Source: Caulobacter sp. D5 (GTDB lineage: Bacteria; Pseudomonadota; Alphaproteobacteria; Caulobacterales; Caulobacteraceae). Taken from it: 48,887 nt of DNA. The notes under the pieces are model-generated. The model was given only the letters and a program-made list of their open reading frames with translations, made no database searches and was not told where the DNA came from. Both the position numbers and the translations under genes were made by a program. The stretch spans positions 1 to 48,887 of the forward strand of contig NZ_QHJY01000006.1 in the NCBI RefSeq assembly GCF_003185805.1, given 5' to 3'. Of this stretch, positions 3,683 to 48,455 are shown piece after piece (position 1 is the stretch's first letter; each line of letters begins with the position of its first letter).

Positions 3683-3772
<90 letters not shown>

Positions 3773-4120: not shown

Positions 4121-4151
4121 TTGCGTCAACGCAACTATCTGGCAGCGACGC
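4121..4151 (+). promoter_or_regulatory. TTGCGT element (imperfect) in the RNA polymerase leader
   Basis: The left arm reads TTGCGTCAACGC, preceded by ATAC as in several other copies. The right arm is degenerate (TGGCAGCGACGC). The first 14 bp are themselves a near-palindrome (TTGCGTCAACGCAA). It lies 65 bp before the near-perfect copy at 4186. Confidence 0.5.
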
Positions 4152-4240: not shown

Positions 4241-4341
4241 GGCCGATTAAGGCCCACCCAGAGGTCAAACCAAAAGTCCAACCAAAAGCCACCTGCGGCC
4301 CACCAGCCGACGGGATGGCGGACTCATGCCTGGAGAGCACC

Positions 4342-6801
4342 GTGGTTCACACCCAAGAGACCCTGAAAGAACTGATCGCCCGCCAGCTGGAGCTGGAAAA
4401 CGAGAGCCGCGCGCTCGGGGCCGCTCGATACCAATCCTCCCGCCCCCTGCCCTGGCGCACCGAGACGTCCTCGGTCATCGAGGAGGCGGAGCTACCGCCC
4501 GGCCGTCAGCTGCTCAAGCTGGCCCTGGAGCCGGCCGCCGCCGCCATCACCGAGTTCCTCGACCGGGTCCGCGAAGGCGGCGCAGGCCGCCGGCCCAAGG
4601 CCTACCGCGTGCTGTGCCTGGCCGGCGCGCAAGAGGCCGCCTACCTAACCGGCCGCGTTGTCGTGAACGCCGCCGCGTCGCGCCTGCCTGTGACCACCAC
4701 GGCCTACGCCGTCGCCGCGTCCATCATCGAGCACATCGAGATGGTCCAGCTGAAGGCCGCCAACAAGGCCGGCTTCAAGGGCCTGGTGAAGGCCCAGAAG
4801 AAGGGTGGCTCCTCGTCGAAGAAGCGCCAGGCCATCAAGGAGATCATGGCGAACGAGGGCGCACGCCTGGAGGTCCCCCAAGCCGAGCAGCTTCAGATCG
4901 GCCTGAAGGCCATCGAGCTGTTCATCTCGTCGTCGGACCTCTTCGTCATGGAGCTGGGCCCCAACAAGTCCGGCCGGGACACCTACTTCCTCCGCCCGAC
5001 CGAGGCCCTGGCCGGGTGGCTGGAGCGCCAGCACGCCCGCTGTGAACTGCTGGAGCCCATCCACCTGCCGATGGTCGTCCGTCCCCGCGCCTGGCGCACG
5101 CCCTTCTGGGGCGGCTACCTGACCAAGCGGCCCGGCCTGCGGCTCGTCAAGCAGTGGAACGACAAGTACCATACCGAGCTGCGCAACGTGGACATGAAGC
5201 CCGTCTACGACGCGGTCAATGCCGTCCAGAACACGGCCTGGCGCATCAACGAGACCGTCCTGTCGGTCATGCGGGAGGTCTGGGACGGCGGCGGCGACAT
5301 GGGCGGCCTGCCCCGTCGGGACGACGTCCCACTGCCGGCCAAGCCCGAGGGCATGGAGGAAGACCCCTCGCTCTTGAAGGATTGGAAGCGGGAGGCGGCG
5401 ATCGTCCACCAGGCGAACGCTATGGCCCTGTCCAAGCGGCTGTCCTTCCAGCAGCGCCTGTGGATCGCCGACAAGTTCGAAGCCGAGGCGGCGATCTACT
5501 TCCCGCACGAGTTGGACTTCCGGGGCCGCATCTACCCGATCCCGACCGGCGGCCCGCACCCGCAGGCCGACGACAGCGGCAAGGCGCTGCTCCAGTTCGC
5601 CGAGGGCAAGCCCCTGGGCGACGCGGGAGCCTGGTGGCTGGCCGTCCACATCGCCAACCTCTTCGGCGTGGACAAGGTCAGCTTCAAGGATCGCGTGGAC
5701 TGGGTCTTCGCCAACACCCAGCTGCTGCTCGACAGCGCCGACGATCCGCTCGACGGAGCCCGGTTCTGGACCACGGCAGACAGCCCTTGGTGCGCCTTGG
5801 CCGCCTGCGTGGACTGGGCGGGGTACATGAAGGACGGCGGGGACTACGTCTCGCACACCCCGATCGCCCTCGACGGCTCCAACTCCGGGCTCCAGCACTT
5901 CTCGGCCATGCTCCGCGACCCCGTCGGTGCTGCCGCCGTGAACCTGCTGCCGTCCGACAAGCCGCAGGACGTCTACGCCCAGGTCGCTGCCAAGGCCCAG
6001 GCCATGGCCGACACTTCCACCTCGGAGGAACTGCGCGCCTGGGCCGGCGGGAAGGTAAGCCGCAAGATCGCGAAGCGCCCCTGCATGACCTACGTCTACT
6101 CGGCGACGCGCTTCGGGATGCACGACATGATCCTGCAAACCCTGCGCGAGGTGGACAAGGAGCACGCGAAGAAGGCGGAGCTGCCCCACCTGGCCGGCGC
6201 GGACAACTACAAGTCTGCCATGGCCCTCTCCTACGTCATGTGGGACGCCATCCAGCAGACCGTGGTGGCCGCCTCGGGCGCCATGGAGTGGCTGCGGAAT
6301 GCGGCGAAGATCGCGACGACCTCGGGCCAGCCGATCTGGTGGACCACCCCCATGGGCCTGCCGGTCCTTCAGATGTACCGAGCGACGGCCTCGGAGACGG
6401 TCAACGTCTTCATCGGAGCCAAGCGGCTCCAGCTGGTAACCGCCGTCCACGCGGAGGGGATTAACCGGAACGCCCAGGTCAACGGCATCGCGCCCAACTT
6501 CGTCCACTCGATGGATGCTGCCCACCTCATGGCCGTGGCCAATACTTGCGTAAGAGCAGGTATTATCAGCCTCGCCGTGATCCACGACAGCTTCGGCACC
6601 CACGCCGCCGACGCCGCCGACCTGGCGATGATCCTGAAGGAGACCTTCGTGGCCCAGTACACCCCAAACGTCCTGGCCCGGTTCCGCGACGAGCTAATGG
6701 CGCAGCTCCCACCAGAGATCGCCGAACTGATCCCCGAGCTTCCCCCGCTGGGCACCCTCGATCTCTCGGAGGTGCTGCGCTCGGACTACGTCTTTGCGTG
6801 A
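4342..6801 (+). CDS. Single-subunit (T7-type) DNA-directed RNA polymerase
   Basis: This enzyme transcribes phage middle and late genes from phage-specific promoters. All core motifs of the family are visible: ALDGSNSGLQHFSAMLRD with the first catalytic Asp (about residue 511), RKIAKRPCMTYVYSATRFG with the conserved Lys/Tyr of the O-helix, GIAPNFVHSMDAAHL, and VIHDSFGTHAADA with the second catalytic Asp (about 749). The C-terminus ends YVFA, close to T7's FAFA. The start GTG 4342 is chosen because GGAGAG (4332-4337) is well spaced; the same CTGGAGAG precedes the next gene. ATG 4315 is in frame nine codons upstream but has no good ribosome site. A TTGCGT element lies inside the gene at 6546, and another overlaps the stop codon. 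Confidence 0.97.
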   Translation: MVHTQETLKELIARQLELENESRALGAARYQSSRPLPWRTETSSVIEEAELPPGRQLLKLALEPAAAAITEFLDRVREGGAGRRPKAYRVLCLAGAQEAAYLTGRVVVNAAASRLPVTTTAYAVAASIIEHIEMVQLKAANKAGFKGLVKAQKKGGSSSKKRQAIKEIMANEGARLEVPQAEQLQIGLKAIELFISSSDLFVMELGPNKSGRDTYFLRPTEALAGWLERQHARCELLEPIHLPMVVRPRAWRTPFWGGYLTKRPGLRLVKQWNDKYHTELRNVDMKPVYDAVNAVQNTAWRINETVLSVMREVWDGGGDMGGLPRRDDVPLPAKPEGMEEDPSLLKDWKREAAIVHQANAMALSKRLSFQQRLWIADKFEAEAAIYFPHELDFRGRIYPIPTGGPHPQADDSGKALLQFAEGKPLGDAGAWWLAVHIANLFGVDKVSFKDRVDWVFANTQLLLDSADDPLDGARFWTTADSPWCALAACVDWAGYMKDGGDYVSHTPIALDGSNSGLQHFSAMLRDPVGAAAVNLLPSDKPQDVYAQVAAKAQAMADTSTSEELRAWAGGKVSRKIAKRPCMTYVYSATRFGMHDMILQTLREVDKEHAKKAELPHLAGADNYKSAMALSYVMWDAIQQTVVAASGAMEWLRNAAKIATTSGQPIWWTTPMGLPVLQMYRATASETVNVFIGAKRLQLVTAVHAEGINRNAQVNGIAPNFVHSMDAAHLMAVANTCVRAGIISLAVIHDSFGTHAADAADLAMILKETFVAQYTPNVLARFRDELMAQLPPEIAELIPELPPLGTLDLSEVLRSDYVFA
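6546..6557 (+). promoter_or_regulatory. TTGCGTAAGAGC half-element inside the RNA polymerase gene
   Basis: The 12-bp arm is identical to the left arm of the 4186 copy, and is preceded by ATAC as at 4117-4120. It is followed by AGGTATT; the right arm is not kept. In frame it reads T-C-V-R-A using ACT TGC GTA AGA GCA, codons that are rare in the GC-rich surroundings. Confidence 0.5.
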
Positions 6802-41094: not shown

Positions 41095-41148
41095 ACCCGT
41101 GAACACCCTGGTCAACCCCCAGGCCACGGGGGCGGGACGGCCCTGCCC

Positions 41149-42870
41149 ATGCTGTCCTCCAAGGAAATCCTCCAGGCCGACTTCCTGAAGTTCGTCTGGT
41201 ACGTCTGGACCCGCGTGCTGTCGCTCCCGAAGCCGACCCGCATCCAGCTCGACATTGCCCTCTACCTTGCCACGGGCCCCCGCCGCCGGTTCATCCAGGC
41301 CTTCCGGGGGATCGGCAAGACCTTCCTGACCGCCGCCTACGTGGTCTGGCGGCTGTGGAAGAACCCCCAGCTCAAGATCATGATCGTCTCGGCGAACGAG
41401 ACCTTCGCCACCGAGATCGCCACCTTCATCAAGCTGATCATCGAGGCCGACCCCATGTGGGCCGAGCTTCGCCCCCGGATCGGCCAGCGCTCCAGCGCCA
41501 TGGCGTTCGACGTCGGCGGTGAAGTTGAGACCCCCGACAAGTCGCCCTCGGTGAAAGCCGTGGGCATCACCGGTCAGCTCACGGGCTCGCGCGCCGACAT
41601 CCTCATCTCCGACGACGTCGAGGTCCCGAAGAACTCCGAGACCGAGACCATGCGGGAGAAGCTGGAGGCCAAGACCGGCGAGTACACCGCGATCCTGAAG
41701 ACCACCGAGGAAGCCGAGATCATCTACCTCGGCACCCCGCAGTCCCAGGAGTCCATCTACCGCCGCCTGCCTGAGAAAGGCTACGGCGTCCGCATCTGGC
41801 CGGCCCGCTACCCGCTGGCCTCGAAGATCGCGGCCTACCTCGGCCACCTGGCCCCCATGCTGCTGGCGGACATCGAGGCGGACCCCGAGCTGTGCAAGCC
41901 CAGCGCCTCGTCGCTCGGCGGCAAGCCCACGGACCCCGAGCGATTCACCGAGATGCAGCTGATGGAGCGGGAGGTCGAGTACCGCCAAGCCCCGTTCCTT
42001 CTCCAGTACATGCTCGACACGTCCCTGTCGGACGCGAACAAGTTCCCGCTCAAGACCCGCGACCTCGTGGTCATGGACGTCCACCCCAAGATCGCCCCGG
42101 TGCGCCTGGCGTGGGCCGGCGGTCGCGAGCAGGTGCTCCCTGACCTCGTGAACGTGGGCTTCGACGGCGACCGGTTCTGCAAGCCGATGTTCGTCTCGCC
42201 CGACTGGGTGGATTACTCCGGCTCCGTCATGCACATCGACCCCAGCGGCCGGGGCAAGGACGAGACTGGGTACGTCGTCACCAAGTTCCTCCACGGTCAG
42301 ATTTACGTCCGGCAGTGGGGTGGCTTCACCGAGGGCTACTCCGAGGCGACCCTCCAGGCCCTGTCGAAGATCGCGGCGGACGAGGGCGTGAACAAGATCG
42401 TGGTCGAGAGCAACTTCGGCGACGGCATGTTCTGCCGCCTGCTGGAGCCCGTGCTCGCCCGGGTCCACCCGTGCGCGATCGAGGAGGTCCGCTCGTCCGG
42501 CCAGAAGGAACTCCGAATGCTCGGCGTCCTCGAACCGGTCCTAGCCCAGCACCGCCTGGTCATGGACTCCAAGGTCGTCGAGCGCGACCTGGCGCACCCC
42601 GAGCTGGTCCGGCGCGGCCTCTACCAGCTGACCCACCTGACCGCCCAGCGCGGGGCCCTGAAGCACGACGACCGCATCGACGTCCTGTCGCTCGGTGTGG
42701 CCTACTGGACCCAGTACCTCAACGCCGACCAGCAGAAGGCCCAGGAGGCCTACGACCGGAAGCAGAACGAGAGGTGGGAGAAGCAGTTCTTCGCCGGGAC
42801 GATCCTCGGGGGCAACCTGAAGAAACCCGGGGCCGGCCCCCGCCGTGGAGCCGGACGTCGCATGAGGTGA
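41149..42870 (+). CDS. Terminase large subunit, T7 gp19-like
   Basis: This is the packaging ATPase and nuclease. The 573-residue length matches T7 (586). Walker A is FRGIGKTFLTAAYVVWRLWK, nearly the T7 sequence. DILISDDVEVPKNSETETMR carries the Walker B/adenine region. The nuclease domain shows VMHIDPSGRGKDETGY and VVESNFGDGMF, with the acidic residues of the RNase H-like fold, and later HDDRIDVLSLGVAYW. The ribosome site before ATG 41149 is poor. Confidence 0.95.
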   Translation: MLSSKEILQADFLKFVWYVWTRVLSLPKPTRIQLDIALYLATGPRRRFIQAFRGIGKTFLTAAYVVWRLWKNPQLKIMIVSANETFATEIATFIKLIIEADPMWAELRPRIGQRSSAMAFDVGGEVETPDKSPSVKAVGITGQLTGSRADILISDDVEVPKNSETETMREKLEAKTGEYTAILKTTEEAEIIYLGTPQSQESIYRRLPEKGYGVRIWPARYPLASKIAAYLGHLAPMLLADIEADPELCKPSASSLGGKPTDPERFTEMQLMEREVEYRQAPFLLQYMLDTSLSDANKFPLKTRDLVVMDVHPKIAPVRLAWAGGREQVLPDLVNVGFDGDRFCKPMFVSPDWVDYSGSVMHIDPSGRGKDETGYVVTKFLHGQIYVRQWGGFTEGYSEATLQALSKIAADEGVNKIVVESNFGDGMFCRLLEPVLARVHPCAIEEVRSSGQKELRMLGVLEPVLAQHRLVMDSKVVERDLAHPELVRRGLYQLTHLTAQRGALKHDDRIDVLSLGVAYWTQYLNADQQKAQEAYDRKQNERWEKQFFAGTILGGNLKKPGAGPRRGAGRRMR

Positions 42871-43347
42871 GCTTCGGGTGGACCAGAGGTTCTACTAGGG
42901 ACCTACGTCTACCTGTCTAATCACCTAGGTATGAGCCTGGGTGTAACCTCTAGTTCTTTACGTAGAAGGGTCGGGCCCTCTTTCAAGGGGGTCCGATCGT
43001 TTCTGGGTCAGAAATCCGAAGCGGCATGTACGTGGTGGCTTCTGTCCCACTCCCCCCATGGGGTGGGCCCGGGGGAACCGCCCGGCTCGCCTGGGGTCCG
43101 CCTGAGGCCTGACACATGGGTCCTGGCACGCATCGGCGGCACACTACGACGCAAGCCCTTGATTTCACTGCATGTGAATGGCGGGACAAGCGCCAAGGGG
43201 CGACGGCAGGTCAGCAAGCGGCGCACCTGGGGACACCCTGGGCCGCCCTGTTGGCCTGCCGTGCGTTCTCGGCGTGCCTCCGGTGTACCCTGCTTTTTTC
43301 GCTAGGCTGGCCTAGGGTCGCCCCCTGACTCACCGGGAGGGGCTGGA
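42871..43347. other. 477-bp gap after the terminase gene
   Basis: No convincing gene is seen. It holds a terminator-like hairpin (42972-42995), GC-rich unstructured sequence and, at the end, CTAGGCTGGCCTAGGG (43304-43319). A T7-like phage carries its direct terminal repeat after terL, so this gap could hold the packaging ends. A prophage keeps only one copy, so it cannot be confirmed here. Confidence 0.4.
42972..42995 (+). terminator. Putative late terminator
   Basis: CGGGCCCTC pairs with GGGGGTCCG with two G-T pairs around the loop TTTCAA, followed by ATCGTTTCT. It lies about 100 bp after terL, where late transcripts should end. Confidence 0.5.
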
Positions 43348-43575
43348 GTGAACTGGAAGCGCGGACTGCGGCGCGTCGCCGTCGTGTTGACCGTGATGTA
43401 CGCCGGGGCGGCCCCCTGGTTCATCTGGAGGCAGTGGGAGGAAGGGTGGCTGTTCCGCCCCATCCACGTTGCCTACGCCGTCGGCCTCTGGGTCGTCGCC
43501 TACCTCGCTGCCTGTCTAGTCCTCTGGGTCGCCTACAGTGTCGGCCGTTGGTTGGTCCGGGGGTTCCTCGACTAA
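43348..43575 (+). CDS. Small two-span membrane protein (early region)
   Basis: A 75-residue protein starting at GTG 43348 with a strong GGGAGG site (43335-43340). It has a basic N-terminus (MNWKRGLRR) and two spans (VAVVLTVMYAGAAPWFIW; VAYAVGLWVVAYLAACLVLW). It is the first gene after the terminase gap, so in a linear virion it may be the first gene to enter. Unknown function; a membrane-acting early protein is plausible. Confidence 0.6.
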   Translation: MNWKRGLRRVAVVLTVMYAGAAPWFIWRQWEEGWLFRPIHVAYAVGLWVVAYLAACLVLWVAYSVGRWLVRGFLD

Positions 43576-43646
43576 GGCCACACGCCGGGGTCCTGGCCTG
43601 GGGCAACACGGGGCGAACCCGGGGGCGGCCGGGGGATTGCGCCGGG

Positions 43647-43690
43647 GCCTGCCTGGGCGGCCTGTTTCGCCGGGCTAGGGACTTTTTATT
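43647..43690 (+). terminator. Imperfect hairpin followed by T-tract
   Basis: GCCTGGGCG can pair with CGCCGGGC with one bulge, and ACTTTTTATT follows 6 nt later. It overlaps the start of the inverted repeat at 43689. Confidence 0.4.
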
Positions 43691-43719
43691 GCGTCAGTGC
43701 ATTTGATGGATTGACGCAA
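43689..43719. promoter_or_regulatory. 31-bp inverted repeat, candidate operator
   Basis: Arms TTGCGTCAGTGC and GGATTGACGCAA around the centre ATTTGAT. The surrounding 60 bp are AT-rich compared with the flanks. Confidence 0.6.
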
Positions 43720-43800
43720 TCAATCTGATTTGCGAGAAGCAGGAACACCGGGGCGGCGACGCACCGGACGGGCTCCGGCCCGGCTCTTTGACATCGTGAA

Positions 43801-43861
43801 CATGCGTCGCGGCCTGACACCGGCCGCCTGAGGAAGGCCCATGGAAGGGCCGAAACGCATA
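43801..43861 (+). ncRNA. Type III hammerhead self-cleaving ribozyme
   Basis: All parts of the core are in place. Stem III is ATGCG (43802-43806) with CGCAT (43856-43860). The cleavage triplet GTC is 43806-43808. Stem I is GCGGCC/GGCCGC (43809-43814, 43822-43827) closed by UGACACC. Then CUGAGGA (43828-43834), one extra A, stem II GGCCC/GGGCC (43836-43851) with loop AUGGAA, and GAAA (43852-43855). Cleavage is predicted after C43808. An extra residue between the CUGANGA box and stem II is also present in both other copies here, and is known from a viroid hammerhead. It is 43 bp ahead of gene 43905. Confidence 0.82.
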
Positions 43862-43862
43862 C

Positions 43863-43893
43863 TTGCGTAAGACCATCCAATGGCCTTGCGCAA
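43863..43893. promoter_or_regulatory. 31-bp inverted repeat, candidate operator
   Basis: Arms TTGCGTAAGACC and GGCCTTGCGCAA around ATCCAAT. It starts 2 bp after the ribozyme and ends just before the GGGAGG ribosome site of gene 43905. Confidence 0.6.
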
Positions 43894-43904
43894 CGGGAGG
43901 CACC

Positions 43905-44078
43905 ATGCACCGCTACCAAGTCTTCGACTGCACCACGACTGTCGGCGTCGCCGCCGACTTCCACGGGCCGCGCTGGGCCGCCCGATGGCTGGCCGTGGTG
44001 CTCACCAAGCTGACCGGCCGCTTCCACGACTACGGCCGCCCTGAGGGCTGCTACCCGGCCTGGGTGGTGGAGCGGTGA
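43905..44078 (+). CDS. Small hypothetical early protein
   Basis: A 57-residue protein with GGGAGG at 43895-43900. The sequence (MHRYQVFDCTTTVGVAADFH; GPRWAARWLAVVLTKLTGRF) is not recognised. The arrangement ribozyme, inverted repeat, ribosome site, gene is distinctive. It overlaps the Rmf-like gene by 4 bp. Confidence 0.6.
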   Translation: MHRYQVFDCTTTVGVAADFHGPRWAARWLAVVLTKLTGRFHDYGRPEGCYPAWVVER

Positions 44079-44230
44079 TCCTCCCGACCTACTACGAGGA
44101 GGGCCGCCGGGCTTGGCGCACCGCCAACGGCCCATGCCCCTATGACCCCGAGAGCGACCGGCCTTCCGAAGTCGCCCGCTACCAAAGCTGGATGGCGGGA
44201 TGGTGGGACGAGGAGGCCGACCACAAGTAG
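44075..44230 (+). CDS. RMF/CrpP-like small protein
   Basis: A 51-residue protein starting at GTG 44075 in a 4-bp overlap with the previous stop. The core YYEEGRRAWRTANGPCPYDP, then YQSWMAGWWDEEAD, follows the ribosome modulation factor pattern (GYxAG, CPY, W-x-x-GW-x-EA). RMF dimerises and silences ribosomes in stationary phase; the related CrpP proteins occur on phages and plasmids. In a phage early operon it could alter host translation. Its stop is the first base of the type I hammerhead stem I. Confidence 0.62.
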   Translation: MILPTYYEEGRRAWRTANGPCPYDPESDRPSEVARYQSWMAGWWDEEADHK

Positions 44231-44291
44231 CCGCCTGATGATGACCGCTTGAGACACGGTCGAAACGCCCTGTGGGCGTCGCGGCGTCTCA
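44230..44291 (+). ncRNA. Type I hammerhead self-cleaving ribozyme, copy 1
   Basis: Stem I is GCCGC (44230-44234) with GCGGC (44281-44285). Then CUGAUGA (44235-44241), one extra U, stem II GACCG/CGGTC (44243-44261) with loop CUUGAGACA, GAAA (44262-44265), stem III CGCCC/GGGCG (44266-44278) with loop UGU, and UC with cleavage after C44280. Loop II UGAGAC is fully complementary to GUCUCA (44286-44291) just after stem I, so a loop II-to-stem I pseudoknot is predicted. Confidence 0.88.
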
Positions 44292-44341
44292 CGTCCGCCC
44301 GCTGGCCGACCGGCCGTCGGCCTACAACGGAGGGCAAAGCG

Positions 44342-44422
44342 ATGCCTAGGCTGAGCTTTGGGGTCCGCTGGAAAAGCAAAAGGACCAGGTGGTCGTTCCA
44401 CCTAGTCCTTCGGTTGCTCTAG
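44342..44422 (+). CDS. Possible 26-residue basic peptide
   Basis: ATG 44342 has GGAGGG about 8 bp upstream. The peptide would be Arg/Lys-rich (MPRLSFGVRWKSKRTRWSFH). Most of its coding sequence is taken up by a long hairpin, so the DNA may be conserved for RNA structure and the frame may be chance. Confidence 0.25.
   Translation: MPRLSFGVRWKSKRTRWSFHLVLRLL
44380..44410 (+). other. Thirteen-pair hairpin
   Basis: AAGGACCAGGTGG pairs with CCACCTAGTCCTT (one C-A mismatch), loop TCGTT. No T-tract follows, so it is not an ordinary terminator. Confidence 0.5.
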
Positions 44423-44530
44423 CCAGCTACCCGGTCCTCGGCGCTCCAACGCCGGGGGCCACCTCCGAACCCTACTCCCGACAACCCAGGACAGCAAGAG
44501 GACCGCGCCTAGCCGCGCGGCTGCAAACCC

Positions 44531-44947
44531 ATGGCCGATCTCGACCTTCAGCGCCTCCGCGCCGCCATCGTCAACCGCGTGGACACCTTCGAGACCCACG
44601 GCATTCGCGCCGCGCTCCTCGACTGGGCTCTTGAAGACGCGGCTTACGAGGCCAACGACCTGGGCGACGCCCTAGGCGCCGTCCAGCGCCGTCTGGAGAC
44701 TGTCGATTGCGCCGCCTGTGCCGCCCCGTCCGGCCTGATCTACGACGCCGACCTTGCCCGCCGCGTGCCTGAGTGGCGCACGGAGATCGACGAGGCCTTG
44801 ACCGACTACCATGACGCCGTGGGCCAACGGCCGGTCATCGAAAGCGTCGGCGGGCTCGTCTGGTTCGCCGTCGAATGGAACGCCTCCGAGATGGCCTCGA
44901 TCCTCGATCGGACCCGCGCCGACATCCTGTCGGCTCTCGCCGCCTGA
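44531..44947 (+). CDS. Hypothetical phage protein (early region)
   Basis: A 138-residue protein, acidic and helical (ADLDLQRLRAAIVNRVDTFE; YEANDLGDALGAVQRRLETV). It has a CAAC cysteine pair in the middle and a C-terminal SVGGLVWFAVEWNASEMASI segment of a kind I have seen in other unannotated phage proteins. It ends 3 bp before a TTGCGT half-element. Function unknown. Confidence 0.6.
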   Translation: MADLDLQRLRAAIVNRVDTFETHGIRAALLDWALEDAAYEANDLGDALGAVQRRLETVDCAACAAPSGLIYDADLARRVPEWRTEIDEALTDYHDAVGQRPVIESVGGLVWFAVEWNASEMASILDRTRADILSALAA

Positions 44948-44950
44948 AAC

Positions 44951-44968
44951 TTGCGTCAATCCATAGAT
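44951..44968 (+). promoter_or_regulatory. TTGCGT half-element with ATCCATAGA
   Basis: ACTTGCGTCAATCCATAGA is the twin of 11021-11039 (one difference). It lies right after gene 44531-44947 and before a strong hairpin. Confidence 0.45.
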
Positions 44969-44984
44969 CGCCTCGGGCCTAGCG

Positions 44985-45010
44985 CCCGGGGCTCCTGTCC
45001 AAGCCCCGGG
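44985..45010 (+). terminator. GC-rich hairpin, possible terminator
   Basis: CCCGGGGCT pairs perfectly with AGCCCCGGG (loop CCTGTCCA). It is followed by GTTGTCCCGGGGTTTCGCTT, which lacks a clean T-tract. Confidence 0.45.
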
Positions 45011-45042
45011 GTTGTCCCGGGGTTTCGCTTGGAGCCCTTCCG

Positions 45043-45195
45043 ATGCCTACCCCTCCCGCTCACCGCCCGACCAAGCGCCGCCCGGCTCCCGTCATCGAGC
45101 AGGGCCGGGGCTACGACCTCGACGGATCGCGCGACGTCCTCCGCCAGCTCGACCTGACCGGCCGCCAAGTGCGCGCCCTGGGCGGGGCGTACTGA
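45043..45195 (+). CDS. Small basic hypothetical protein
   Basis: A 50-residue protein starting at ATG 45043 with GGAG at 45031-45034. The N-terminus is Pro/Arg-rich (MPTPPAHRPTKRRPAPVIEQ). Its stop overlaps the next ATG. Unknown function. Confidence 0.55.
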   Translation: MPTPPAHRPTKRRPAPVIEQGRGYDLDGSRDVLRQLDLTGRQVRALGGAY

Positions 45196-45419
45196 TGCGC
45201 CAGGACGACACCACTCAGCGGCTGACCTCGTCGGCCCTCCTCGTGCTCGCCGATCTGGAGGCGAAGCGCCTGCGGGCCTGGGACGCGGGGCTGCTCGATG
45301 CCTCGCGCAAATGCGTCTTCGCCGCGCATCACGTCATCATGGCCGTGACGGGGAACTACACGGGCGACCCGCGCACCATGGAGATCATGGCCTGGGCCTA
45401 CGAAGAGCAGGACGCCTGA
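45195..45419 (+). CDS. Small hypothetical protein
   Basis: A 74-residue helical protein (TSSALLVLADLEAKRLRAWD; CVFAAHHVIMAVTGNYTGDP). TGATG overlaps on both sides link it to its neighbours in a three-gene unit that ends at the third ribozyme. Unknown function. Confidence 0.6.
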   Translation: MRQDDTTQRLTSSALLVLADLEAKRLRAWDAGLLDASRKCVFAAHHVIMAVTGNYTGDPRTMEIMAWAYEEQDA

Positions 45420-45631
45420 TGGCCCGCCCTTCACCCCCTTCAGTCGCCGAGATCAACGCCGCAGTTGACCGCTGGATCGCCGAGGCGCGCTTCTACCCTC
45501 CCCAGCGGGCGGCCGAGATGCTGCGCTCGAAGGCGCGGTTTGTCGCCCAGCAGGCCCGCGCCCTTGCCGGTGACGCCGTGGCCCTGAGCCTCGCCGAGAC
45601 CGCCCTGCTCGCGGCCGCCATGGCCGTCTAA
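45419..45631 (+). CDS. Small hypothetical protein before the third ribozyme
   Basis: A 70-residue Ala-rich helical protein (VAEINAAVDRWIAEARFYPP; RFVAQQARALAGDAVALSLA). The stop codon TAA is immediately followed by hammerhead stem I. Unknown function. Confidence 0.6.
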   Translation: MARPSPPSVAEINAAVDRWIAEARFYPPQRAAEMLRSKARFVAQQARALAGDAVALSLAETALLAAAMAV

Positions 45632-45693
45632 GCCACCTGAAGATGACCGCGTGAGACACGGTCGAAACCGCCGCTGGCGGTCGTGGCGTCTCG
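45632..45693 (+). ncRNA. Type I hammerhead self-cleaving ribozyme, copy 2
   Basis: Stem I is GCCAC (45632-45636) with GTGGC (45683-45687). Then CUGAAGA (45637-45643), an extra U, stem II GACCG/CGGTC with loop CGUGAGACA, GAAA (45664-45667), stem III CCGCC/GGCGG (45668-45680) with loop GCU, and UC with cleavage after C45682. Compared with copy 1, one stem I pair changes G-C to A-U and stem III is rearranged with pairing kept. Loop II GAGAC again pairs with GUCUC (45688-45692). Confidence 0.88.
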
Positions 45694-45699
45694 CCTGGG

Positions 45700-46047
45700 T
45701 TAGCGCCCGGGTCGCCGCAAGTGAGCCTTGAGGAGGTCCGCCGCCTCGGGGCCGTACTGCGCCTCATACTGGGCCAGGCGCTCCCGCTCTTGGCGGCCGT
45801 AGTAGTCCAGCACCGAGGCCCGCGCCCCGATCATCTTCTGGCGCCCTGCGGCTTTGCACGCGGGGCACACGAGGATGCGCCGGGCGTCGGCGAACGTCGT
45901 ATGCGCGCCCAGGCGGGCCACGGCTTCCTCAGGCATCCACACGGTGATCTCCGTGCGCGAGCAGCCGAGGTTCTGGCACCAGACCTCTAGCCGGTCCCCG
46001 GTGACGAGGAGGTCCCCGATTACGGGGGCTGATGGGGGCGCGTTCAT
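45700..46047 (-). CDS. Zinc-ribbon protein on the opposite strand
   Basis: A 115-residue protein, transcribed against the early genes. It has RLEVWCQNLGCSRTEITVW, then LGAHTTFADARRILVCPACKA: a pair of Cys motifs (C..C and CPAC) around a short helix, a layout found in small phage and alphaproteobacterial zinc-ribbon proteins. A helical tail follows. ATG at 46047 is preferred; an in-frame ATG at 46083 is possible. Unknown function. It shares a divergent intergenic region with 46179. Confidence 0.65.
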   Translation of the reverse strand: MNAPPSAPVIGDLLVTGDRLEVWCQNLGCSRTEITVWMPEEAVARLGAHTTFADARRILVCPACKAAGRQKMIGARASVLDYYGRQERERLAQYEAQYGPEAADLLKAHLRRPGR

Positions 46048-46061
46048 GCGCCCATCATGGT

Positions 46062-46178
46062 CAGAACAGATGGAGAACATCAAGGCGGCGCTGCCGCCCC
46101 GGCCGTCCCCAGGTGCGTCAATCGGACTCGCATCGGGTGCGTCCAGTTCTGACGTAAACCAGAACGATAGGAGAACAT
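46062..46178. promoter_or_regulatory. Divergent regulatory region with short repeats
   Basis: CAGAACAGATGGAGAACAT (46062-46080) and CAGAACGATAGGAGAACAT (46160-46178) match at 15 of 19 positions. GTTCTG/CAGAAC (46146-46151, 46160-46165) forms an 8-bp-spaced palindrome. GTGCGTCAATC (46114-46124) is a diverged TTGCGT-like site. Promoters for both the minus-strand zinc ribbon and gene 46179 should lie here. Confidence 0.45.
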
Positions 46179-46307
46179 ATGTCCTGCCCAGTTTGTCCCG
46201 CGTTGATCAACTTCGAGATGGCCGCCGGCCGACTCGTGGTGGCCGACAAGGGCGCGTCGGTCGCACATCCCCATCCCTTCAAGCCTATCGAGGAGCGTGG
46301 CGCGTGA
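46179..46307 (+). CDS. Very small hypothetical protein
   Basis: A 42-residue protein with a strong AGGAG site (46168-46172) ahead of ATG 46179. It has CPVC near the N-terminus (MSCPVCPALINFEMAAGRLV) and a His/Pro-rich end (VAHPHPFKPIEERGA). It overlaps the next gene by 4 bp. Confidence 0.5.
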   Translation: MSCPVCPALINFEMAAGRLVVADKGASVAHPHPFKPIEERGA

Positions 46308-46450
46308 GGGCGTCCCTCGCCTGCTTCGTCTTCCCGATCCTGGCCTTCTTCCTCCTCGCGGCGTTGTGCCGCGTCGTCAGCTCGCTCTTTCCTGTGGATA
46401 GGCGCGCCAAACGGAAGGTCAGGAATTCACACATCCAGAGGATGCGGTAG
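46304..46450 (+). CDS. Small single-span membrane protein
   Basis: A 48-residue protein from GTG 46304, with one span (LACFVFPILAFFLLAALCRV) and a very basic C-terminus (DRRAKRKVRNSHIQRMR). Coupled to the preceding gene. Unknown function. Confidence 0.5.
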   Translation: MRASLACFVFPILAFFLLAALCRVVSSLFPVDRRAKRKVRNSHIQRMR

Positions 46451-46484
46451 AGCGTCTACTCATCCTAGGTCCTGCTGCTTTGGT

Positions 46485-46589
46485 CGTCTCCTAGACGTCG
46501 AGCTAAGCGGTAGCGGGGCCCGGTGCGCTCAACCCACCCAAGGTGCTGGTTGAGCTGTCCCGGGTAACGCGGGTCTCTTGTTAAGACCC
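46485..46589 (+). other. Array of four hairpins
   Basis: CGTCT/AGACG (46485-46497), GCTA/TAGC (46502-46514), GCTCAACC-CACC with GGTG-CT-GGTTGAGC (46527-46555) and GGGTCT/AGACCC (46571-46589). The third is the longest, with 12 pairs. They may end early transcripts or form a structured leader. Confidence 0.45.
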
Positions 46590-46659
46590 TCCCTGACCAC
46601 CTGTGGATTAGCCTTGGCGGGGTGATTGTTTCAGAGCCGCGACTGACTTAGGTCCGTCG

Positions 46660-46690
46660 CAACGTAAAGCCATTGGATGCGTTCCCGCAA
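46660..46690. promoter_or_regulatory. Degenerate 31-bp inverted repeat upstream of the regulator gene
   Basis: On the minus strand it reads TTGCGGGAACGC, ATCCAAT, GGCTTTACGTTG, so the centre matches the 43863 copy in reverse orientation. It lies 68 bp before the regulator start, as an autoregulatory operator would. Confidence 0.45.
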
Positions 46691-46757
46691 TTAATGGCCT
46701 TGCTCAAGTAATTTGCCAAGGTTAGGAGTCTGAGTCCCTTGAGAAGTGAGGCCATCA

Positions 46758-47207
46758 ATGACGAACACGTCGAAGACCGCAGGGGCCACGAAAGGACCCG
46801 CTGTCATATCAAAAACGCTCTTGGGTTCCGCGAGCGCCTTGCAGCAATTGTCGGTGGCCCTCCAGGCGATCTCAGCCGAGGTGCCTGCACGGACGTCCGC
46901 ACGCCAGTGCATGGCGTTCCTGACGGTGGCCTATCTGGACACCATGGGGAAGAGCATCACCATGTCCGACCTGCGCGAGCTGGTGGGTGAGGACAACGAA
47001 GGCCAGCCGATCCTCGGCAACTCGGTCGAACGCACCCTGAATTCGTTCCTTGAGCCGACCAAGCGCGACCCCGAGGCGCTCGGATGGCTCACCCACGAGA
47101 ACGACGCGGACGATCGTCGGCGGAAGTACCTGCGCCTCACTCTGGAGGGCCAGGAAGCCGCCACCCGCTTTATCGAGGCCTATCAGGGCCGAGCACTGAA
47201 GGAGTAG
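46758..47207 (+). CDS. Winged-helix (MarR-like) regulator, candidate lysogeny repressor
   Basis: A 149-residue protein with a MarR-like layout: a helical N-terminus (SALQQLSVALQAISAE), then ARQCMAFLTVAYLDTMGKSI, helix 2 TMSDLRELVG, a recognition-helix region GNSVERTLNSFLE, and a wing with DADDRRRKYLRLTLEGQEAA. Such proteins bind palindromic DNA as dimers. It lies upstream of the integrase with only 3 bp between them, so they form one operon. No CI-like repressor is seen elsewhere in the prophage. ATG 46758 has GTGAGG 6 bp upstream. Confidence 0.7.
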   Translation: MTNTSKTAGATKGPAVISKTLLGSASALQQLSVALQAISAEVPARTSARQCMAFLTVAYLDTMGKSITMSDLRELVGEDNEGQPILGNSVERTLNSFLEPTKRDPEALGWLTHENDADDRRRKYLRLTLEGQEAATRFIEAYQGRALKE

Positions 47208-47210
47208 GCC

Positions 47211-48329
47211 ATGCGCCTCCGTAAGAAGCCCAGCGGCATCTGGGTCGTCGACTACACGGACGCGGCCGGCGAACGCCGCCGCGTCACCACAGGCACCCGC
47301 GACAAAGCGGCTGCGACCCTCCTTGCGCGTGACATCGTGTCCGGCATTTGCGTAAGTCCATCCACCGTAAAGACGCAAGCACCGGACGGCCGGACCACCG
47401 TGGACGAGCTGTTCCGCATGTGCGAGCAGGACATCTGGAAGCCCGGCAAGGTGAAAGCCGAGGCCACCGTCAAGTCGAACCTGAAGCTGCTTCGGGAGCG
47501 CATCGGCTCCGTTGCGGTCGTCGATCTGACCGGCGCACGCCTGAAGCTGCTCGTGGCCGACTTGGAGAATGACGGCTACGCGCCAGCCACCATCAAGCGG
47601 AAGCTGGACACCCTGTCGAAGGCGCTCGTGATGGGGCTGGAGTACGAGGACAGCAAGGGCCGGCCGATCCTGGCGGCGAAGCCGAAGATGCCGACCATTG
47701 AGGTCCGCAACTACTCCGACCGCGTCCTTGAGCCCGCCGAGGAAGCTGCCCTGTTCGCCGCCATCGAGCGTCGCCGGGCCGCCGAGCCGACCCGCGACTG
47801 GCTCCGCTTCGGGCTGCTGATCCGCTTCCTGCTGGACACCGGGTGTCGCCTGGGCGAGGCCCTGAACGCCCAGGTGCCGCGCTTCGAGGAGTTCGCCGAG
47901 CGCTGGTGGGTCACCTTCCCCATCTACTCGACGAAGAACGACAAGCCGCGCCAGCTGCCGCTCACCCGGGCGATCGAGGAGAGCCTACCGGTGCTCCTGG
48001 CCATGGCCGGTCCCGACGGCCGCGTGTTCCCGTACTCGCCGGCCAACGTCTGGTACAAGTGGACGAACCTGCGCGACGACCTGAAGCTCGTCGGGTTCGA
48101 CATCGGGGATGTGAAGCTCCACACGCTCAGGCACACCTGCCTGACCAAGCTCGCCAGGACGTCTCTGCCGATCCACAAGATCATGCAGTGGGCGGGCCAC
48201 AGCTCGATCGACATCACGGTCAAGCGCTACGCCCACCTCCGCCCGGAGGACACGATGGACGCCCTGGGCATCCTCGACGGGCCGGCCCCGGCGGTCACCT
48301 CCCGGTCTAAGCAACTTCTTCTTTCGTAA
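47211..48329 (+). CDS. Tyrosine integrase
   Basis: The enzyme integrates and excises the phage at tRNA-Ser. The 372-residue protein has an N-terminal arm-binding-like part (KKPSGIWVVDYTDAAGERRR), a core-binding SAM-like region (VKSNLKLLRERIGSVAVVDL) and the catalytic domain with TGCRLGEAL (Arg213), LHTLRHT (His304, Arg307), WAGHSS (His330) and the nucleophile in VKRYAHL (Tyr340). It lies 108 bp from attR. A TTGCGT inverted repeat lies inside its 5' part. Confidence 0.96.
   Translation: MRLRKKPSGIWVVDYTDAAGERRRVTTGTRDKAAATLLARDIVSGICVSPSTVKTQAPDGRTTVDELFRMCEQDIWKPGKVKAEATVKSNLKLLRERIGSVAVVDLTGARLKLLVADLENDGYAPATIKRKLDTLSKALVMGLEYEDSKGRPILAAKPKMPTIEVRNYSDRVLEPAEEAALFAAIERRRAAEPTRDWLRFGLLIRFLLDTGCRLGEALNAQVPRFEEFAERWWVTFPIYSTKNDKPRQLPLTRAIEESLPVLLAMAGPDGRVFPYSPANVWYKWTNLRDDLKLVGFDIGDVKLHTLRHTCLTKLARTSLPIHKIMQWAGHSSIDITVKRYAHLRPEDTMDALGILDGPAPAVTSRSKQLLLS
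47348..47378. promoter_or_regulatory. 31-bp inverted repeat inside the integrase gene
   Basis: Arms TTGCGTAAGTCC and GTAAAGACGCAA around ATCCACC. It encodes C-V-S-P-S-T-V-K-T-Q with GTA, AGT, CCA, GTA and CAA codons, which are rare in this genome. The DNA motif seems to be kept at the cost of codon preference. Confidence 0.5.
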
Positions 48330-48338
48330 TGGCGGTAA

Positions 48339-48369
48339 TTGCGTCAACGCATCTAATGTTTTAACGCAG
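48339..48369. promoter_or_regulatory. 31-bp inverted repeat after the integrase gene
   Basis: Arms TTGCGTCAACGC and GTTTTAACGCAG around ATCTAAT, the same centre as the 6807 copy. It begins 10 bp after the integrase stop. In the excised circle it would lie upstream of the RNA polymerase leader. Confidence 0.6.
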
Positions 48370-48436: not shown

Positions 48437-48455
48437 AATCCCACCCTCTCCGCCA
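48437..48455 (+). other. attR core
   Basis: It is identical over 19 bp to the tRNA-Ser 3' end at 3754-3772. It marks the right boundary of the prophage. Confidence 0.9.

Follow-up and report, generated by a model that had tools for sequence, protein, structure and literature searches.

Clusters of hammerhead ribozymes that flank genes in prophages were described by Perreault et al. (2011; PMC3088659, cited here from its text sections). These clusters hold types I to III with pseudoknots in all three types; cleavage was shown in vitro for three of them and in vivo for one that had been cloned in E. coli. According to the same text, the pseudoknot form is optional in the hammerhead family (about 40%), and mRNA processing was proposed as the role. 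That role was left open in 2011 and is still called an open question in the part of a 2017 review drawn on here. We analysed a stretch of 48,887 nucleotides from Caulobacter sp. D5 (positions 1 to 48,887 of contig NZ_QHJY01000006.1, forward strand), referred to as the window. It is an entire contig (C502), one of 587 contigs of the 5.29 Mb genome, and is a T7-like temperate prophage inserted into a tRNA-Ser gene. An earlier note, made from the sequence alone, had claimed a pair of type I hammerheads in it, at 44230 and 45632.

Like the Agrobacterium ardA cluster and others in PMC3088659, the window has several prophage hammerheads that border individual genes or small groups of genes; the text of that paper differs in naming no insertion between A9 and 10.1, and its main text is without the words Shine, ribosome and translation. 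The two type I elements (copies 1 and 2) belong to an established group, the pseudoknotted hammerheads of prophages, and are well supported by covariation; uncommon are the extra U in their cores and a lineage with a ribosome-binding-site (RBS) type of leader ribozyme. The structure, covariation, positions and conservation in relatives suggest that copies 1 and 2 would cleave themselves 3' of C17. We regard it as quite probable that these pseudoknotted, extra-U type I elements, together with a type III hammerhead upstream, act as punctuation in the early RNA of a temperate T7-like phage. The elements and their parts are as follows.

44230..44291, plus strand: copy 1, type I hammerhead (structure scanner, covariation; 86.7 bits with covariance model R1, whose training alignment includes it).
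Parts of copy 1: stem I GCCGC 44230-44234/GCGGC 44281-44285; core CTGATGA 44235-44241; extra U (T) 44242; stem II GACCG 44243-44247/CGGTC 44257-44261; GAA 44262-44264; stem III ACGCCC 44265-44270/GGGCGT 44274-44279; C17 44280.
44280/44281, plus strand: predicted cut of copy 1, 3' of C17.
44250..44255, plus strand: loop II TGAGAC of copy 1, pseudoknot partner GTCTCA 44286-44291.
45632..45693, plus strand: copy 2, type I hammerhead (structure scanner, covariation; 85.3 bits with R1, whose training alignment includes it).
Parts of copy 2: stem I GCCAC 45632-45636/GTGGC 45683-45687; core CTGAAGA 45637-45643; extra U (T) 45644; stem II GACCG 45645-45649/CGGTC 45659-45663; GAA 45664-45666; stem III ACCGCC 45667-45672/GGCGGT 45676-45681; C17 45682.
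45682/45683, plus strand: predicted cut of copy 2, 3' of C17.
45652..45657, plus strand: loop II TGAGAC of copy 2, pseudoknot partner GTCTCG 45688-45693.
43802..43860, plus strand: type III hammerhead (structure scanner; 66.3 bits, E 1.5e-18 with model R2, whose training alignment includes it).
Parts of the type III element: stem III ATGCGT 43802-43807/ACGCAT 43855-43860; C17 43808; stem I 43809-43814/43822-43827; core CTGAGGA 43828-43834; extra A 43835; stem II 43836-43840/43847-43851; GAA 43852-43854.
43808/43809, plus strand: predicted cut of the type III element, 3' of C17.

Copies 1 and 2 each form three helices around the core with stem I open (5, 5 and 6 bp in stems I, II and III), and both carry CUGANGA ... 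GAA, the A15.1-U16.1 pair and H17, here a C; loop II and the tail pair over at least 6 bp. Direct reading and the structure scanner thus bear out the two elements that the earlier note had placed here, and the scanner and an alignment of eight relatives agree with it on the shared catalytic core letters and the type I topology. The compensatory changes that it had pointed out in stems I and III do keep pairing, TGAGAC of loop II does pair with GTCTC[AG] past stem I in both copies, and its predicted 5' ends at 44281 and 45683 are correct from the sequence; the extra U in both cores and the type III hammerhead 370 bases upstream were absent from it. In 5.87 million simulated strand-bases (first-order Markov), no element reached 16 helix pairs, a number that both copies have at least. 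The minimum free energy (MFE) fold of copy 1 is the hammerhead secondary structure, and that of copy 2 is the same except for two extra loop pairs; fold energies compared with shuffles were unremarkable (z -0.91 and z -1.53, respectively). The covariance-model search suggested as a check gave a divided answer: Rfam returned no hammerhead across the window at gathering scores and none within 43000-46500 up to E 10, whereas R1 recovered both copies, each being part of its training alignment. The Rfam silence is uninformative because insertion-free hammerheads of the same loci were also missed at gathering scores; the best match in related loci was to Hammerhead_3, with 19.5 bits against a cut-off of 48.5 (locus L166).

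The eight related type I elements (alignment A1: two from the window, one from Caulobacter phage S2B and five from four IMG/VR contigs) are of the TGAG type and were taken from 91 listed elements that had been chosen for a pseudoknot of at least 5 bp. Their covariation, which had been claimed from the two copies, held in the larger set: 98.8% of the 168 cells were paired, with a covariation score of 0.413, compared with 0.161 for shuffled and at most 0.094 for slid partners. Double changes were found at nine pairs, two in stem I, three in stem II, three in stem III and one in the pseudoknot, while the unpaired core letters (except N7), A15.1-U16.1 and C17 were invariant in 8/8 elements. The pseudoknot is better shown by 185 type I elements not selected for it than by A1. 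In these, loop II and tail were complementary over a mean of 3.70 bp, compared with 2.85 bp after tails were swapped (maximum 3.04 in 500 swaps; the statistic ignores kinship). A hammerhead core with a pseudoknot is also seen in the PK hammerhead crystal structure 8YDC (available text of PMC11300833); there, however, the pseudoknot replaces helix II, whereas the window copies keep helix II, whose loop pairs with the tail past stem I.

Both copies directly follow a stop codon, as the earlier note had said: the last G of TAG (44228-44230) doubles as a stem I base of copy 1, and TAA (45629-45631) abuts the 5' end of copy 2. The closest named phage, S2B, is collinear with the window across most of it, and its early region has two type I hammerheads, located where gp062 and gp060 stop, and one type III hammerhead ahead of gp065; gp060 and gp062 end on the type I core's own UGA. 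Such placement of type I elements at gene ends is the arrangement that PMC3088659 gives for prophage clusters. We examined it in 159 type I elements with enough flank, using 3180 random places and 159 antisense positions as controls and counting same-strand frames of at least 60 codons (stop to stop) that end within -25 to +14 of the element's 5' end. A frame ended there in 133/159 elements, compared with 512/3180 random places and 21/159 antisense positions. The UGA of the core itself ended 45 of the 133, a stop forced by the pattern and not forced in the controls, which leaves 88/159 without those; 31 of the 133 ended at offset 0 or +1, like the window copies. Downstream, a Shine-Dalgarno (SD) sequence and a frame of at least 40 codons lay within 120 bases in 98/159 type I elements and in 596/3180 random places.

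In the consensus hammerhead, position 10.1 comes directly after A9, a spacing not found in the two window type I cores, where a U stands between them. The occurrence of this base was surveyed in viral contigs and bacterial genomes with stem I fixed as CCGC/GCGG and with stem II and the A9/10.1 position free; viral and genome duplicates were not cross-removed, genome loci were not confined to checked prophages, and the viral set includes this prophage's own IMG/VR copy (L024). Element sets picked for the U were left out of its frequency, and all counts that follow are among the matches listed. The 189 parsed type I elements had U in 95, no extra base in 81, G in 10, A in 2, C in 0 and two bases in 1, so that U accounted for 95 and G for 10 of the 107 with exactly one extra base. 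By strict parse, the viral part gave none 49, U 48 and G 5 (unparsed 33/135) and the genome part U 47, none 32, G 5, A 2 and two bases 1 (unparsed 62/149); a laxer viral parse gave none 61, U 55 and G 5 (unparsed 18/139). U-bearing genome records include Cyanobacteria, Clostridiales and Saccharibacteria. Stem II began with GG or GA in 47/48 viral and 45/47 genomic U-bearing elements, and mostly with GG, GT or GC in insertion-free ones. This frequency suggests wide natural use of the extra U, with many elements escaping searches based on the textbook core. In locus L044 (at 2283), and likewise in L097, L119 and L124, the predicted cut of an extra-U type I element lies about 8 bases before GGAGG and the next start codon.

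The closest precedent for this base is the (+) hammerhead of Chrysanthemum chlorotic mottle viroid (CChMVd), which also has one extra nucleotide between A9 and 10.1; it differs in being from a viroid, in the extra base being A and in having no phage context, whereas the type I sets here are dominated by U. According to the available text of the review PMC3705267, the extra A between A9 and G10.1 goes with moderately less trans-cleavage, and in the work of De la Pena and Flores (2001) an A-to-U change there raised trans-cleavage 3-4-fold, C and G being detrimental. The extra U is a core change that was beneficial in one laboratory study of a viroid ribozyme. A9 spacing is not a defining hammerhead feature, because a self-cleaving viroid hammerhead breaks it, and the extra U is probably extruded, tolerated or favourable. 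Titles and abstract openings yielded no published phage case of an insertion at this point; the parts drawn on of PMC544870, PMC12531169, PMC9608096 and PMC4918200 contained no further natural one, and the text sections of PMC3088659, as distinct from its supplementary alignments, do not mention it.

The type III element at 43802-43860 shows the hallmarks of its class, namely the core, hairpin stems I and II, an open stem III and C17; no such element occurred in 3.9 million simulated strand-bases. A partial type I element at 43828 was considered and rejected in favour of the full type III structure given by the scanner, and a type II scan of the window found nothing at 13 or more pairs. Counterparts stand at the corresponding place in S2B and in Mycobacterium phage jiawei, with stem I letters that differ among the three elements (GCGGCC/GGCCGC, GAGGCC/GGCCTC, CGCCCC/GGGGCG); between A9 and 10.1 the window has A, S2B nothing and jiawei U. 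Both counterparts carry AGGAGG within stem-loop II. In S2B, the ATG of gp065 (start 44985) lies inside the 3' strand of stem III, and in jiawei the start of the following gene, at 41133, is the first base past the element. Across 23 distinct type III elements (alignment A2, in which L036, L403, L405 and L406 have no near ATG), the covariation score was 0.705, compared with 0.175 for shuffled and at most 0.147 for slid partners; 99.2% of 368 cells were paired, double changes fell at 10/16 pairs, and the A9/10.1 position held U in 16, nothing in 5, A in 1 (the window) and C in 1. In the type III elements of L387, L388, L389 and jiawei, the cleavage-site strand can also pair with core GATGAT or GACGAT, in an alternative fold that is close in energy and leaves stem III open. 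The recorded host of jiawei (L135) is mycobacterial. Its terminase is 66% identical to that of the window, which has its closest relative in a Caulobacter phage, and its leader ribozyme matches; the host assignment deserves a check.

If the three window elements act as their structures suggest, the early-region RNA would fold and cut itself after C17 at 43808, 44280 and 45682, and the polycistronic RNA would be divided between genes. The pseudoknot would hold stems I and II side by side. Each upstream RNA would end in a 2',3'-cyclic phosphate and each downstream RNA would begin with a 5'-OH. After a type I cut, the bulk of the ribozyme would remain with the upstream mRNA as a structured 3' end; after a type III cut, it would remain with the downstream mRNA as a structured 5' end with a 5'-OH. 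The early RNA of T7 is divided by RNase III; here, the cutter would sit in the RNA itself.

The arrangement in S2B and jiawei was sought in viral contigs with a pattern for the 3' half alone (core, GGAGGGYCGAAAC and an ATG within 4). All 22 matches, on 21 viral stretches, were complete type III hammerheads; the SD and AUG are there by choice of pattern, the unspecified halves of stems III and I being the test, and the set contains several near-identical pairs; the later round of parsing left out L378, which had been parsed earlier. Stem III of L393 is only 3 pairs long. Dropping the ATG from the pattern gave 28 stretches, 7 more than before; 5 of these 7 are type III elements by parsing, their ATG being absent or more distant, and the other 2 are not. 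Among loci selected for neither SD nor ATG, a near ATG accompanied 4/5 elements with GGAGG in stem-loop II and 1/60 with other loops, or 4/17 and 1/48 with a lax SD definition (Fisher p 0.015). In G398, a record of 48 kb whose T7-like polymerase is 62% identical, three type III hammerheads lie within the first 2 kb, and two of these are of the RBS type. Kissing of loops I and II was not significant in the GGAGG class (3.24 vs 2.90, maximum 3.28 of 300 swaps, 25 elements), and we accordingly do not claim that loop I holds the SD; over all 84 type III elements it was significant (3.11 vs 2.42, maximum 2.63).

In such relatives, stem-loop II holds the SD and the AUG lies within or beside stem III. 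The uncut RNA would hide the start codon, and cleavage, once stem III has gone, would make the start of the next gene accessible. That in some phages, temperate T7-like ones included, a type III hammerhead is its own RBS, with cleavage gating the first early gene, and that U between A9 and 10.1 occurs in about half of sampled CCGC/GCGG type I elements, we put forward together as a tentative proposal, somewhat doubtful as it stands. If it is true, ribozyme cleavage gates translation of a first early gene. Engineered ribozyme switches exist, and a ribozyme containing an RBS would be their natural counterpart. A literature search, judged by titles and abstract openings, gave no natural hammerhead with a Shine-Dalgarno sequence. 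HHphage of haloviruses HF1/HF2 is comparable in that a hammerhead variant lies 13 nt before the start codon of the first early gene, with the mapped 5' end of the early transcript at most 3 nt from the cut; it differs in belonging to a group with insertions near C3 and P1, and the text of PMC3088659 gives no SD inside the ribozyme. The window element has neither SD nor AUG: its loop II is ATGGAA and the start codon position reads ACGCATA instead of ACGCATG. As ATG has become ATA and loop II is ATGGAA, the sequence indicates that the RBS role has been lost here, or moved to the start at 43905.

Several observations weigh against cutting of the early transcript by these elements. A core with the extra U departs from the published consensus, which the hammerhead core fits almost without exception according to the text of PMC3088659, and the favourable effect of U concerns trans-cleavage of a viroid ribozyme, known here through the summary in PMC3705267. 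The type III copy has lost its start codon and SD, and its MFE structure is a misfold (-30.2 vs -27.4 kcal/mol for the hammerhead). Non-hammerhead MFE folds were also found in 6/7 relatives folded, L394 at equal energy; the scanner structure of L113 is invalid for the energy model, and its MFE fold is the hammerhead less one stem II pair. Past copy 2, the best frame examined (45700-46083) is on the other strand, so copy 2 may act at the end of a transcript, trimming it, instead of between two genes. Matches were also rare, R1 in 3/299 family genomes and R2 in 3/385 class genomes, own genome included, and the scanner sees no hammerhead at the two other R1 matches, nor at one of the two other R2 matches (G560).

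One alternative view takes the copies as relics, in which the inserted U breaks the core and once-active hammerheads are decaying. The consensus spacing favours it. So does the available text of PMC3705267, where the viroid base is called additional, and that of PMC3088659, where a core insertion elsewhere (A6a) was harmful. Decay, however, predicts mixed letters and broken stems, whereas one letter, U, predominates in the survey and nearly every cell of A1 is paired; the Rfam silence says nothing on the U, as insertion-free hammerheads in the same loci were missed too, and a viroid hammerhead that naturally has one more base here does cleave (PMC3705267, same text). We therefore consider relics improbable. 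Stable mRNA 3' ends or terminators, with cleavage incidental, would suit the position close behind stop codons and that of copy 2 ahead of an opposite-strand frame; yet a plain hairpin needs none of the letters kept in 8/8 elements (the unpaired core apart from N7, A15.1-U16.1 and C17), no T run follows the copies, and a terminator scan found none at either copy, which makes this account, if anything, slightly less credible. Copies 1 and 2 align to one S2B element by blastn, as if duplicated, and hammerheads elsewhere serve circular RNAs, both of which would fit circular or trans-ligated RNAs, or selfish cassettes, rather than mRNA processing. The type I positions, however, track gene ends in the 159-element test, and the text of PMC3088659 reports that spliced or circular products of prophage clusters went undetected there (data not shown); we rate this explanation as the least probable of the three. 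Punctuation of an early mRNA by ribozymes is thus the reading we prefer, and the S2B lineage, with an isolated member, an integrase, and type I and type III hammerheads in the early region, makes the role of such hammerheads testable.

The assignment to a temperate T7-like prophage in a tRNA gene rests on the phage gene set, the integrase and a 19-bp tRNA-Ser repeat. The window encodes a T7-like RNA polymerase, primase/helicase, DNA polymerase, head-tail adaptor, major head protein, tail protein, terminase and integrase. In the S2B map, a terminal repeat follows the terminase, and small genes lie ahead of the integrase and polymerase; by this map, the early region of the window would be 43-47 kb. 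The other features considered are as follows.

3754..3772, plus strand: attL, the tRNA-Ser 3' end, a 19-bp exact repeat of attR 48437-48455; the two are the prophage bounds.
4315..6801, plus strand: T7-like single-subunit RNA polymerase (phrog_414, E 2.1e-239).
41149..42870, plus strand: terminase large subunit (89.8% identity to the Caulobacter phage S2B terminase).
43905..44078, plus strand: gene A, 57 aa, first ATG frame of such length past the type III element; no Pfam match.
44075..44230, plus strand: gene B, 51 aa, the last base of its TAG common with copy 1.
44531..44947, plus strand: gene C, 138 aa.
45195..45419, plus strand: gene E, 74 aa.
45419..45631, plus strand: gene F, 70 aa, its TAA abutting copy 2.
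47211..48329, plus strand: integrase (phrog_1, E 9.7e-51).

Gene B shows a weak likeness to ribosome modulation factor (E 0.1, below the cut-off). A sigma-70 promoter scan over 43000-47300 found none. Between copy 1 and gene C, a 14-pair hairpin at 44379-44411 is terminator-like on the minus strand. Sites reading TTGCGTCAA/TTGACGCAA occur at 4121-4129, 43689-43719, 44951-44959 and 48339-48347, which places them close to each end of the prophage and within the early region; one half-site among them is without the final A, and the two half-sites at 43689-43719 form an inverted repeat common to S2B. These look like repressor or integrase operator sites.

Outside this genome, T7-like terminases matched 6/398 order genomes, own included, and the six regions at the other six places had no hammerhead by the scanner, R1 or R2. 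The R2 match that the scanner confirmed, in one other class genome (L417), is a type III hammerhead with an extra U and a loop without SD (61.8 bits), about 32 kb from a T7-like polymerase. The next frame past it (181 aa) resembles the antirestriction protein ArdA by eye; an ArdA gene adjoins hammerheads in the text of PMC3088659. Two multi-hammerhead phage loci also match other self-cleaving ribozymes: a pistol ribozyme in L058 (1279-1355, 53.8 bits) and, in L166 (3890-3805), a type-P1 twister below the cut-off (45.1 bits, E 6e-8).

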